Notes under the pieces: generated by a model | Database searches by the model: none | The model's input: the letters and a program-made list of their open reading frames with translations, nothing else | What the model was told of the DNA's origin: nothing | Part shown: in pieces, positions 14,842 through 19,637 of the stretch | Numbering within the stretch: the stretch's first letter is position 1 | How the letters are laid out: the number at the start of each line of letters is the position of its first letter | Made by a program: the position numbers and the translations under genes | Assembly: GCA_025352795.1 (NCBI GenBank) | Contig: JANXSF010000008.1 | Coordinates: 1 to 64,000 of the forward strand | DNA: 64,000 bases | Direction: 5' to 3' | DNA from: Acidobacteriota bacterium | GTDB lineage: Bacteria; Acidobacteriota; Terriglobia; Bryobacterales; Bryobacteraceae

Positions 14842-14937
14842 GCGAATACTTAACTATTCAGTAAACCTACTTACTTCCCCTGGCCTAAAGTTCTCTAAGG
14901 GTTTTTCCGATAAGACACTTGATCTCAGTATTGAAAG

Positions 14938-17900
14938 GTGAATCCAAAAACAATGCCACCACGGGGACTTTGGTCTCTTAATTTTTCCGATTGGCTAGCA
15001 GTCAGTGCTATGTCCGACATGGCGTGGCTGCTCAAGCAATACTACAAGCGCGCGATTTTTTGTAGCCTGATGGGAGCTGCGCTTACTTGGGTATTGGTGT
15101 ATTTCTTTCCTGATCAATATATCTCAAGGGCGCAAGTCCGCTTTATTCCACCGCAGGTTGCAGAAAAGTATGTGACGCCAAACGTTGCCATGCAGGTGGA
15201 TCAGCGTATTTTCGCGCTTACCCAACTGGTAAATAGCCGATTGACCGGCACCAAAATGATAGAAAGTTTCGGACTGTATCCAGAGCGCAGAATGCTTTCC
15301 ACCATTGCCGACCTGGTCCCCAGATTTCAACAAAGCCTTCAAATGAAGGGTACAACCACCAATGAAAATGGTGTGAATCACAGTGTCCCTACCATTCAGA
15401 TCTCCTTTCAATATTCCAATCCGGCACAATCTCAAAAAGTTGTGCAACGGGTTGTGGAACTGATTTATGAAGAGAATCGTCGCTATCGCGGCGAACAATC
15501 CATTGGAACCACTGAATTCCTGCAACAGGAAGTGAAAAAGGTTTTGGATCAGTTGACGGAGATGGAAGCGAAAATCAGCACTTTACCCGCACCCACACAA
15601 ACAATAACCACGCAATATACCTTTGAAATTGAGGAGTTGCATCATGTGGACTCCAGACTCTCCGCAGTTCAAAAAGACCTGCGTGCGGCCAATGGCGAAC
15701 GGACGTTGAAACGAGCATTAATTTCGGCGCTGGAAGGCCAAATCGCCACGGTGGACCAATCGCCCCTATCGCAACCAGGGAGTGCGCCTCCGACGCTTAG
15801 CGGGGATCGAGCACGAGATATGGTGATGCTATTGCGGGCGAAGGTGGACGAAGCCAGGGCCCGTTATGTGGTGGGTCAACACGATAGGGTGTTTGTGGAG
15901 GAAGCTCTTTCGAAAGCAGAAAAGGCTTTGACCCGAATGGAAGAGCAGGAAGCCAAATTGAGTCGCGAAAGCAGTCGTGAACTGCTTATGAATCGCTATG
16001 TACAAGCTAAGGCGGAACTGGTGGCAGTTGAATCCTCCAGATCGGCATTGATGGCTGAAGAAGGGCAACTGAAACGTCAGATGAGTGCCTTGCGAGAGAG
16101 CATGTCCCCTGCCCCGGATAGCGAATTGGATCGACTGGTGCTGAACCGCGAATATGCGGTGATTAAGGAACAATATTCGGAATTGACTAAGAAGCAGAGG
16201 GAATCGCAAGTTGCCTCCAACATGGAACGGCGCGGTCAAGGGGAGACGGTAGAGCTGATTGAACCTCCTGTGCTTCCAGATTCGGCTGAACAACCCGTGG
16301 CCGCCATTCGCATCGCTTCAGGGGCCATTGCGGGTATGGCTTTTGGCATGATGTTGGGACTATTTTCATTCCTTCGTCATCCACACATCCGCACAGCCCG
16401 TCATTTGACTTTGGTTGGCGGAATTACCACTTTGATTGAATTACCAGATGGTCCGGCACTGCTCACTTCCGCAGGAACGGCGGGAATTGGCGGACGGGGA
16501 CTTCTTGGCGGCCTAATTTGCCTGGCGCTGATGGTCACAAGTTGCGCCAGTCAATCGGCTGACTCCTTCTTGAAACGAGGGGAGCAGTTGGCGATGAAAG
16601 GCGACTATGATTCGGCCATCCTCCTTTATCGCCAGGCGCTGAAACGCGAACCTAAGAATGGCACCGTAAATTATCAACTTGCATTGGCACTGCAGGAGAC
16701 CGGGCAGATCAACGCGGCCCGCGATCAGTATGTTAGAGCCGTGGAACTATTGCCGCAACGCAAAGAGGCGTTGGTGCGGTTAGCAGAACTTACCTATCAG
16801 ATTTATTTCGGGGATCCGGGTAGGCCAACCACTCTATTACGAGAGGTAGAAGATCAAGCTGGAAAACTGATGGAGATGTGGCCCAAATCGCCAGAGGGCT
16901 ATCGCCTAAAAACGCAGGTTTTGATAGAACAACGACGGCCATCGGATGCCATTGATCTGCTGCAAAAAGCGATTTCCATGGGTGCTTCCGACCCGTCCTT
17001 ACTGGCCCAACTTTCGGCGGTTTATTACCAATTGCGAGAAGTGGCCAAAGCCAAAACAGTGTTGACAAGTTTGCTGGAAGATCATAGTAAATATGGACCT
17101 GGCTACGATCTTTTGTATTTGCAATTGATGGAACAGCATAAGACCCAGGATGCGCGAAAGATTCTAGAGAAAAAAGTGGCCAATATGAGTGGCATGGCTG
17201 TGGCACTGCAACTTGCTGCCCACCTGGACGCTTCCGGTGATCGGACAAGTTCGCTGGCGTTGGTCAGTCAGTCGGCAACAAAATATGCAAAAGAAGAACT
17301 CGCCCAAGCTCAAGCCGGCGATTTTTGGTTGCATCGCGGGCTATTTGACAAAGCTAAAGAATGGTTTGAATCGGGCAAATTATTGCATCCTGCGGCTAGA
17401 AACATTTATGCCATGCGCCTGATGGACATGGAGCTGGTGAAGAAGAATCCGTTGGCGGCAAAGGTAATCCTGGACACGGAACTGAAGCTTTCCCCAAACG
17501 ATCCGCTGTTGAATGCGTATCAGGCAGCATTGCAGATCGATTCCGAAGGTGAGCTTCAGCGCAATACCGCACGAGCCAAGCTGGAAACGATTTTGACAAA
17601 AATGCCGAACTCATCTTTTGTAAGGCTTCACCTTGGCCGGGCTTATTTGCGTGCTGGAGAATTGATGAAGGCCAGTCAACAACTGGAACGCAGTGTCACC
17701 TTGGACCCAAACTATGCGCCGGGTTGGATTGCGTTGGCGGAATCCGATCTTCTTTCGGGACGCCCGAATATGGCCAATGATCGCTTAAACGCCTTATTGC
17801 AGCGGGCTCCTGGGTATACTCCGGCCTTGATCCTTCAGGCAAAGGCAAGTTTAGCCAGAAAACGTCCGGCAGAAGCGGGTGAATCTTTGATGAAAATATT

Positions 17901-18729
17901 GGCGCAAGATCCCAACGACCTGGAAGCGATTCTGACCTTGGCCAGTGCCGAAGGCAGTCTGCAACATGGCAAGGAAGTAATCACGTTGCTGGACAGGGCA
18001 GAAAAGTTGGCACCAAAAGACGCCCGTCCCTTTCTGATGCGGGCGCAGTGGGATGCAACTAGCGGCCGAGCGGTACTGGCCCTCAGTGGACTGCAGAAGG
18101 CTCGGGATCGGTTCCCAATGAACTCGGACATGCGTTCCCTAACCGCTGGGTTGGCGATTCGCAACGGCAACCTGCCGTTAGCGATAAAAGAGTACAAATC
18201 GTTGATGGGCGAGTTTCCCAAAAATACGGAATTTCGATTGGGCTATGCCAATGCACTGGGTCTTTCGGGGGATCGGAAGCAGGCGGCAGAGGAATATAAA
18301 AAGATTCAGCAGCAAGGTGGGGACGACGGTCGGGCGTGGTTGAACTATGGGGTTCTGATGGCCACCGCAGGGGATCATGTGCAGGCTAAGATCGCTTATT
18401 CAGAAGCCATCAAGCGCGATAAAAATAACGGTTATGCTCTGAACAATCTGGCGTATTTGATGGCCCGTAGCGGGGACGACCTGCAGACGGCATTGCATTA
18501 TGCCGAAGAAGCCAAGCGATCTATGCCCAGAAGTCCAGAGATTCACGACACCTTGACCTACATCTATTTACGAATGGGCATGACCCGCAACGCATCGGCG
18601 ATTCTTGAAGAAATGATGCAGTGGCTTCCGCAGCAGGAAAAGAAAAATACGGAGAAACTTTTGGCAATGATTCGGCGTGGGGAATCGAACAAGGTTCGCA
18701 GTGAAATGGAACGGGCGGCGGTGAATTAA
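14938..18729 (+). CDS. Wzz-like chain-length determinant fused to a periplasmic TPR protein
   Basis: A single 1263-residue frame combining two proteins normally encoded separately in exopolysaccharide/exosortase loci. Residues 1 to about 485 are a Wzz protein: TM1 near 40-58 (AIFCSLMGAALTWVLVYFF), a long coiled-coil periplasmic part, the GNVR-type segment LDRLVLNREYAVIKEQYSEL, and TM2 (IASGAIAGMAFGMMLGLFSF). A third hydrophobic segment at about 518-536 (GLLGGLICLALMVTSC) resembles a lipoprotein signal. It is followed by about 20 TPR units to the end. The topology would place both the Wzz loop and the TPRs in the periplasm. GTG at 14938 has a GAAAGG site; ATG at 14953 is an alternative. The stop overlaps the kinase-like gene (TAATG). 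Confidence 0.85.
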   Translation: MNPKTMPPRGLWSLNFSDWLAVSAMSDMAWLLKQYYKRAIFCSLMGAALTWVLVYFFPDQYISRAQVRFIPPQVAEKYVTPNVAMQVDQRIFALTQLVNSRLTGTKMIESFGLYPERRMLSTIADLVPRFQQSLQMKGTTTNENGVNHSVPTIQISFQYSNPAQSQKVVQRVVELIYEENRRYRGEQSIGTTEFLQQEVKKVLDQLTEMEAKISTLPAPTQTITTQYTFEIEELHHVDSRLSAVQKDLRAANGERTLKRALISALEGQIATVDQSPLSQPGSAPPTLSGDRARDMVMLLRAKVDEARARYVVGQHDRVFVEEALSKAEKALTRMEEQEAKLSRESSRELLMNRYVQAKAELVAVESSRSALMAEEGQLKRQMSALRESMSPAPDSELDRLVLNREYAVIKEQYSELTKKQRESQVASNMERRGQGETVELIEPPVLPDSAEQPVAAIRIASGAIAGMAFGMMLGLFSFLRHPHIRTARHLTLVGGITTLIELPDGPALLTSAGTAGIGGRGLLGGLICLALMVTSCASQSADSFLKRGEQLAMKGDYDSAILLYRQALKREPKNGTVNYQLALALQETGQINAARDQYVRAVELLPQRKEALVRLAELTYQIYFGDPGRPTTLLREVEDQAGKLMEMWPKSPEGYRLKTQVLIEQRRPSDAIDLLQKAISMGASDPSLLAQLSAVYYQLREVAKAKTVLTSLLEDHSKYGPGYDLLYLQLMEQHKTQDARKILEKKVANMSGMAVALQLAAHLDASGDRTSSLALVSQSATKYAKEELAQAQAGDFWLHRGLFDKAKEWFESGKLLHPAARNIYAMRLMDMELVKKNPLAAKVILDTELKLSPNDPLLNAYQAALQIDSEGELQRNTARAKLETILTKMPNSSFVRLHLGRAYLRAGELMKASQQLERSVTLDPNYAPGWIALAESDLLSGRPNMANDRLNALLQRAPGYTPALILQAKASLARKRPAEAGESLMKILAQDPNDLEAILTLASAEGSLQHGKEVITLLDRAEKLAPKDARPFLMRAQWDATSGRAVLALSGLQKARDRFPMNSDMRSLTAGLAIRNGNLPLAIKEYKSLMGEFPKNTEFRLGYANALGLSGDRKQAAEEYKKIQQQGGDDGRAWLNYGVLMATAGDHVQAKIAYSEAIKRDKNNGYALNNLAYLMARSGDDLQTALHYAEEAKRSMPRSPEIHDTLTYIYLRMGMTRNASAILEEMMQWLPQQEKKNTEKLLAMIRRGESNKVRSEMERAAVN

Positions 18730-19637
18730 TGGCAACCGAAGACCAAACTACGCAGTCGCAAAAATCGGCGGAATCGCTGGCGCACAGAGCCATTGAAGAC
18801 CTGGCATTGGAAGCAGACAGCAGTGTGGAACAAATGCTGCGATTGGTGGACCGCCTCCATCGGGCGGAGCGACCGAAGCCGGAAGAAGCTGTTCCTATTG
18901 ATCTGGGCAAGGAAACAACTGCGCCGCAAGAAAAACGTTTGCCGCGGTTGGATTGGGATAAGTGCCTGCAAACTTTCCCGGTACTGCATCCTAAGTGCAA
19001 GCGCGAATATATAGAATCCTTCCGATTGTTGCGGGCTCGTGTGAGCTTGGCGAAACGAGAATGGGCAGCGGGTGGTGCGTTGCTGCAAGTGTTAGCCATC
19101 GTCAGCACTTCGTCTCGCGAAGGAAAATCGTTTGTGGCCACCAATCTTGCTGCAGCGTTGGCCATTGGGAGTGATGAGAAAGTATTGATTGTGGACCTGA
19201 ACCCTTTGTCCAATGAGTTAAGCTCTTCCCTGGGCATCTTAAAAGGGCCCGGCGTTTCTGAGGCAATGCACAGCGGGCAATGGGAAAGTTCTGTTCGTCA
19301 AGTGGGCGAAACCAACTTGTATGTATTACCGGCTGGAAGGGCAGCGGAGAACCGCTTGGATGGCATTGATTTCCGTCGCGTTCCAATGCTTTTGGAATCC
19401 CTGCGAGGCACCTTTGCCTGGATCATTATCGACGGTCCAGCACATGCGGATTCGTCCGATGCAGAGCTGTTGTCCAACTATGCCGACGCCAATTTACTGG
19501 TTGTCCAAAAAGGCGTGACTGAGTTCAACGAGGTGGCTCAGTTGAAGGAAGGCATCCCCGAAGGTCGATTGTTGGGGGCTGTGCTCAACAACCAAACTTT
19601 GAAGAAGTCGAAATCCTGGTTCCGTCGGGGTGAATAG
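18729..19637 (+). CDS. BY-kinase/CpsD-like ATPase, degenerate
   Basis: A 302-residue cytoplasmic protein with the fold of bacterial tyrosine autokinases that partner Wzz proteins in polysaccharide export. The P-loop region reads AIVSTSSREGKSFVATNLAAAL. Walker A-prime is LIVDLNPLSNE, where family members normally have DADLRRP, so the usual second Asp and Arg are missing. Walker B is WIIIDGPAH. The C-terminus (KKSKSWFRRGE) has no tyrosine cluster. The N-terminal 100 residues are helical and unlike the family. It may be a regulatory ATPase rather than an active kinase. It is coupled to the Wzz-TPR gene by a one-base stop/start overlap. Confidence 0.8.
   Translation: MATEDQTTQSQKSAESLAHRAIEDLALEADSSVEQMLRLVDRLHRAERPKPEEAVPIDLGKETTAPQEKRLPRLDWDKCLQTFPVLHPKCKREYIESFRLLRARVSLAKREWAAGGALLQVLAIVSTSSREGKSFVATNLAAALAIGSDEKVLIVDLNPLSNELSSSLGILKGPGVSEAMHSGQWESSVRQVGETNLYVLPAGRAAENRLDGIDFRRVPMLLESLRGTFAWIIIDGPAHADSSDAELLSNYADANLLVVQKGVTEFNEVAQLKEGIPEGRLLGAVLNNQTLKKSKSWFRRGE

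Follow-up and report, generated by a model that had tools for sequence, protein, structure and literature searches.

The 64,000-nucleotide stretch analysed here (the window; positions 1 to 64,000 of the forward strand of contig JANXSF010000008.1, GenBank assembly GCA_025352795.1) comes from a bacterium of the family Bryobacteraceae, phylum Acidobacteriota, and carries a gene in which a Wzz-type chain-length regulator is fused to a PrsT-like TPR protein. The segment that joins the two parts resembles a lipoprotein signal, and the fate of this junction is the subject of the present analysis. The longest open frame occupies positions 14938-18729 of the forward strand and comprises 1263 codons without an internal stop, as the initial annotation had described, although its start has been corrected. 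The GTG that opens the frame at 14938 lacks a Shine-Dalgarno (SD) signal; the ATG at 14953 is the likelier start because it follows the motif AGGTGA and has an SD energy of -6.9 kcal/mol, compared with +0.6 kcal/mol for the GTG. Translated from this ATG, the product would probably contain 1258 amino acids and have a mass of 140.2 kDa. Residues are numbered below from the start of the longest frame, and those of the N-terminal AlphaFold2 (AF2) model from its residue 6 (Table 1).

The proposal that two proteins are joined in this frame is borne out by profile matches to both parts. Residues 36-499 match TIGR03007, the XrtA chain-length determinant, with 104.2 bits, and the TPR half matches TIGR02917 (PrsT) with 206.8 bits, each below the curated cut-off (278.85 and 312.2, respectively). 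Among the Pfam models, PF13807 reaches 20.6 bits, under its cut-off of 27.7, several TPR models match the second half, and PF02706 is absent among the matches of the fusion protein. An AF2 model of residues 6-735, built from a 21-row alignment, has a mean predicted local distance difference test score (pLDDT) of 81.9 and a predicted template modelling score (pTM) of 0.37. It shows, in order, a first transmembrane helix (TM1), beta strands, a long coiled coil, a second transmembrane helix (TM2), a disordered linker and a short helix before Cys536. The broad architecture of Wzz and other polysaccharide co-polymerases (PCP), in which two transmembrane helices flank an alpha/beta and coiled-coil domain, is thus found in the model, and the domain would lie on the periplasmic side. 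In this arrangement, and in having a BY-kinase-like gene next downstream, the fusion resembles the XrtA chain-length determinant; it differs in its C-terminus, which continues into a signal peptide and a TPR solenoid, and in its score. The co-polymerase Wzc (PDB 9r68 and 9r62) appears among the 50 Foldseek matches listed for the N-terminal model (E values of 1.3e-7 and 9e-7), with low TM-scores of 0.21-0.26, and most of the listed matches stem from the TPR part of the model.

The second half was modelled as a solenoid of 42 helices (pLDDT 89.6, pTM 0.58) that begins about 5 residues after Cys536. Sequence searches against solved structures returned designed, eukaryotic and some bacterial TPR proteins among the best 60 of 226 matches, and fold searches gave TPR proteins and weak Wzc matches among the 50 listed per search. 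As in PrsT, a TPR solenoid is combined with a lipoprotein signal. PrsT, however, is encoded by a gene with a start of its own in the 25 unfused copies compared here, whereas in the fusion it lies behind Wzz and its signal is internal. PrsT received its name in 2006 because it co-occurs with the PEP-CTERM system (PMC1569441).

Table 1. Features of the fusion gene and of its downstream neighbour in the window
Feature	Position	Strand	Remarks
Shine-Dalgarno motif AGGTGA	14936..14941	+	serves the probable start ATG 14953; read in the sequence
Wzz~PrsT fusion gene	14953..18729	+	start ATG probable; longest frame from GTG 14938; stop 18729
Wzz/PCP-type chain-length regulator half	15043..16434	+	residues 36-499; TIGR03007 match; AF2 model
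TM1	15043..15105	+	about residues 36-56; model helix 31-51
TM2	16300..16377	+	about residues 455-480; model helix 450-475
Presumed cytoplasmic linker	16378..16494	+	pLDDT about 40, model residues 491-520
TTG codon of Leu499	16432..16434	+	sole start-like codon within 40 codons of Cys536; SD -4.8 kcal/mol
Putative internal lipoprotein signal peptide	16495..16542	+	Arg520, then 15 uncharged residues ending VTS
Lipobox Cys536	16543..16545	+	proposed Lgt site and proposed first residue after LspA cleavage; invariant 24/24
TPR solenoid, PrsT-like half	16558..18726	+	about residues 541-1263; TIGR02917 match; AF2 model
BY-kinase-like ATPase	18729..19637	+	ATG overlaps fusion stop (TAATG); TIGR03018 match

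The same architecture was sought in 237 genomes of the family, the window's own included (E <= 1e-60). Complete, stop-free fusions are present in 21 of them, and their identity to the copy in the window ranges from 34 to 66%. Since the frame is free of stops in 20 other genomes, the fusion is more than a chance event. No fusion was detected beyond the family among 257 genomes of the order (about 20 of them outside the family; E <= 1e-120), and a sample of 396 genomes from across the phylum (E <= 1e-100) yielded the window's own fusion and no other; more distant fusions could be missed because these cut-offs are strict. Trees were computed for the Wzz half (21 fused and 18 unfused sequences) and for the TPR half (21 fused and 27 unfused rows, among them two identical pairs). 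In both, a single branch, a long stem with 100/100 support, separates the fused copies from the unfused ones, and the inner branching of the two trees agrees by eye apart from small details. The TPR tree carries warnings, namely long unfused branches and an odd letter make-up in some rows, some of them fused. These trees point to one origin of the fusion.

Four further genomes hold pieces of the gene. In G114 the piece ends at a contig end; in G081 the fragment (locus L049) has a single TAG within its Wzz part and also reaches a contig end; the remaining two, in G204 (L050) and G189 (identified with L125 by equal coordinates), are described below. It could be suspected from such damaged copies, and from the fact that all 23 of the 23 named records returned were metagenome-assembled genomes (MAGs), that a sequencing error, a misassembly or the decay of a pseudogene had removed a stop codon. 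Set against this are the 21 intact copies in different genomes, their conservation at the protein level and the one-clade trees, and an artefact or a decaying gene is scarcely conceivable. A read error hiding a stop, which the initial annotation had named as a possible refutation, is excluded because 21 of the 237 genomes carry the intact fusion; sequencing error and misassembly were rejected on the same count.

Two of the pieces are noteworthy in their own right. The remnant at L050 has lost both ends, lies directly behind a PEP-CTERM gene and keeps its lipobox intact; decay or misassembly may account for it. At L125, from a Lake Baikal MAG, the copy stops after TM2, near the contig end, and gives way to AT-richer DNA unlike the fused genes (L125:8230-8515). 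These last 285 bases look foreign (GC content of 43.5%, compared with 59.8%), and the end is either a chimeric contig end or an insertion, uninformative on any splitting of the fusion.

The junction was compared in 24 copies that span it, and over the full length in the 21 intact copies. The linker after TM2 is variable, with a net charge of +1 to +10 across the 24 copies (in L048, TM2 is lost at the contig end). A complete lipoprotein signal, consisting of a basic n-region, 13-19 uncharged residues and [GSA]-Cys, is retained in all 24. The initial annotation had placed its cysteine, in the motif LALMVTSC, at about residue 536, which is its exact position in the longest frame, far from the N-terminus of the translated chain. 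The codon of this cysteine is TGC in 22 of the junctions and TGT in the other two, and it is the sole invariant cysteine of the 21-row alignment. Between residues 439 and 560, where mean column identity is 53%, only Cys536 and Leu499 are invariant. The lipobox pattern PS51257 fits the Cys536 equivalent in 24/24 junctions. The 24 sequences contain 106 cysteines, of which 33 match the pattern; the remaining nine matches lie 53-64 residues upstream, within TM2 or next to it. Furthermore, the geometry of the signal equals that seen in unfused PrsT. The uncharged run measures 15.5+-1.4 residues in the fused copies (n=24) and 14.7+-1.5 in unfused PrsT (n=25; p=0.11), and in both groups the n-region is always net positive, the residue at -1 is always Gly, Ser or Ala, and the residue at +2 is never Asp. 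The earlier observation that the segment still resembles a lipoprotein signal therefore extends to all copies and, because the cysteine is invariant and the geometry is that of unfused PrsT signals, the internal signal gives no impression of being a relic. It appears to have been maintained by selection in the interior of a chain whose translation continues past it.

A signal peptide in this position could nevertheless belong to a second protein, if translation of the TPR lipoprotein began within the frame, with read-through yielding a minor or irrelevant product. Start codons (ATG, GTG or TTG) located 12-40 codons before the lipobox cysteine were scanned, with an SD level of -5 kcal/mol or lower. 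Each of the 25 unfused PrsT genes offers a start codon in this range, ATG in 24, and 19 reach the SD level. The fused copies have any start codon in range in 17/24, ATG in 8/24 (e.g. L048 and L039) and an SD-supported start in 6/24, which is the background, since 31.8% of 1267 positions in the same genes score as well. Seven copies have no in-frame ATG, GTG or TTG in range, and L037 has none anywhere from -60 to -8 of the cysteine. The -5 level separates the groups best, because at stricter levels (-7 and -8) just 6 of the 25 unfused genes pass. In the window, the only in-frame start-like codons located 60 to 8 codons ahead of Cys536 are three TTGs, at -46, -44 and -37, the last being Leu499. 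The initial annotation had found no canonical start with a ribosome site right before the signal; TTG 499, with an SD energy of -4.8 kcal/mol, is the only candidate within 40 codons and speaks for internal initiation. Across the 24 copies, however, the codon in this column is CTG in 13, CTC in 7, TTG in 2 and CTT in 2. A stop and start near 16440-16500, which relatives might have had, occur in none of the 24 copies, and were this a two-gene system, renewed splitting should be seen in some lineages, yet 0/21 intact copies show it. At the level of sequence, the scan shows that the fusion lacks a conserved internal start. Although rare start codons such as ATT would be compatible with the sequence, synthesis of two proteins by internal initiation, the other refutation foreseen earlier, is quite improbable.

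A single translated chain with a conserved signal in its interior leads us to a model of maturation that we consider rather likely. The ribosome would make one chain, a conserved polyprotein. TM1 and TM2 would insert its Wzz part so that the domain between them faces the periplasm, and the chain would then return to the cytoplasm. The linker would lead to the mid-chain lipoprotein signal, which, as a third insertion directed from inside to outside, would export the TPR solenoid. Lgt would lipidate Cys536 and LspA would cut before it, giving two products at the same place in a fixed 1:1 ratio: a 59-kDa inner-membrane Wzz protein, whose third membrane segment would be the used signal peptide, and a TPR lipoprotein of 81 kDa without Asp at +2. 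The AF2 models, in which the junction is disordered and the solenoid follows closely after the cysteine, fit this scheme. Lgt is encoded in all 21 fusion genomes and LspA in 19. A comparable bacterial case is the FbcH cytochrome b/c1 precursor of Bradyrhizobium, which our literature searches did not return: one gene gives a product that is cut at an internal signal into two membrane proteins. It differs in that type I signal peptidase and unrelated proteins are involved, whereas the signal of the fusion is of the lipoprotein (LspA) type.

The main rival is a tether that is never cut, in which the whole chain persists with a third, plain transmembrane helix, so that an inner-membrane Wzz carries a fixed periplasmic TPR arm, with Cys536 lipidated or not. 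The initial annotation had proposed such a direct tie between the inner-membrane regulator and the TPR arm. A tether would explain why one chain, without a stop in 21/21 intact copies, has been retained as a fusion over a long divergence, and on the predicted topology the TPR half would be periplasmic whether or not the chain is cut. It does not explain the invariant cysteine: a plain helix needs neither such a residue preceded by a small one nor a short, signal-like uncharged run. In the 21 intact copies, TM1 and TM2 have uncharged runs of 16-33 and 12-24 residues; most exceed the 13-19 of the signal, although the ranges overlap. The direct tie thus does not follow from the fusion; the invariant cysteine and the signal geometry point to cleavage, and it is on these grounds that we favour lipidation and cleavage into two proteins over a permanent tether, which we regard as unlikely.

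Several observations weigh against cleavage. The segment before Cys536 is modelled as a helix with low confidence (pLDDT about 47). The residue at -3 is less canonical in the fusion, being Ala in 10/24 copies and Leu in 6/24, while Leu occupies it in 12/25 unfused PrsT signals. LspA was not found in genomes G006 (84% complete) and G217 (88% complete). No report of LspA cleaving an internal signal was met among the papers listed from the open-licence literature and, finally, a fusion kept for so long could just as well reflect a benefit of the covalent link itself. The Wzz~PrsT architecture was likewise not found among the papers listed from that literature, screened by title and start of abstract, and PMC6256036 provided no precedent.

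If the chain is cut, lipoprotein processing can do without a signal at the N-terminus and serve the maturation of a bacterial polyprotein, and predictors that scan N-termini alone would miss such signals. If it remains uncut, a PrsT-type TPR arm has acquired a covalent link to the inner membrane. The fusion ties PrsT to a chain-length regulator, physically or stoichiometrically, and either way the role of PrsT becomes testable, since it is here grouped with such a regulator and placed next to a BY-kinase-like gene.

The neighbourhood of the fusion suggests a link with a putative surface protein. A PEP-CTERM protein of about 250 amino acids is encoded near 17 of the 21 fusion genes, in 16 of them as the nearest upstream gene on the same strand. 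The residues PE are invariant in 21 aligned members of this family, and a curated PEP-CTERM cut-off is passed by 3 of the 5 members tested (alignment A4). Searched with this alignment (E <= 1e-15), the family occurs in 23 of the 25 genomes with a fusion or a piece of one, compared with 1 of the 212 others (Fisher p=1.3e-28, relatedness of the genomes being ignored). The gene is not beside the fusion in the window or in its genus mate G001; G001, G155 and G156 carry it elsewhere in the genome, and the family is absent from the window's own genome at the same threshold. An exosortase (PF09721) is present in 20/21 fusion genomes. The exception is again the window's genome (96.6% complete), which has no PF09721 match yet contains 11 PEP-CTERM matches; the exosortase is therefore probably missing through an assembly gap, and possibly through a real loss. 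Taken together, we lean slightly towards the view that a clade of Acidobacteriota makes a co-polymerase and a TPR lipoprotein as one polyprotein matured by LspA, with a signal located over 500 residues into the chain, a third helix left behind, a 1:1 ratio of products and a dedicated PEP-CTERM protein. The parts may act in polysaccharide length control, in export or in surface attachment of the PEP-CTERM protein to which they are linked.

Members of the linked PEP-CTERM family (L041, L058-L060, L063-L075 and L160) are sometimes tandem duplicates. In genome G010 (L160), the gene occurs without the fusion and stands beside a membrane protein that is presumably CPBP-like.

Directly downstream of the fusion, the BY-kinase-like ATPase matches TIGR03018 with 91.5 bits, below the cut-off of 230.65, and such a gene is next downstream in 17/21 fusion loci. 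In a sample of 18 unfused Wzz loci of the family and the order, a kinase gene lies within the surrounding DNA retrieved in 12 and is directly adjacent in 11, whereas a PrsT gene lies within it in only 2 (L136 and L148) and is adjacent in none. Apart from the fusion, the window's genome encodes a PrsT on contig C7 and two Wzz-kinase pairs (C44 and C31). The partner in the window has a Walker A-like motif, REGKS; by eye, the P-loop looks degenerate in several relatives among L058, L067 and L072-L075, and some of these partners may therefore be pseudo-kinases.

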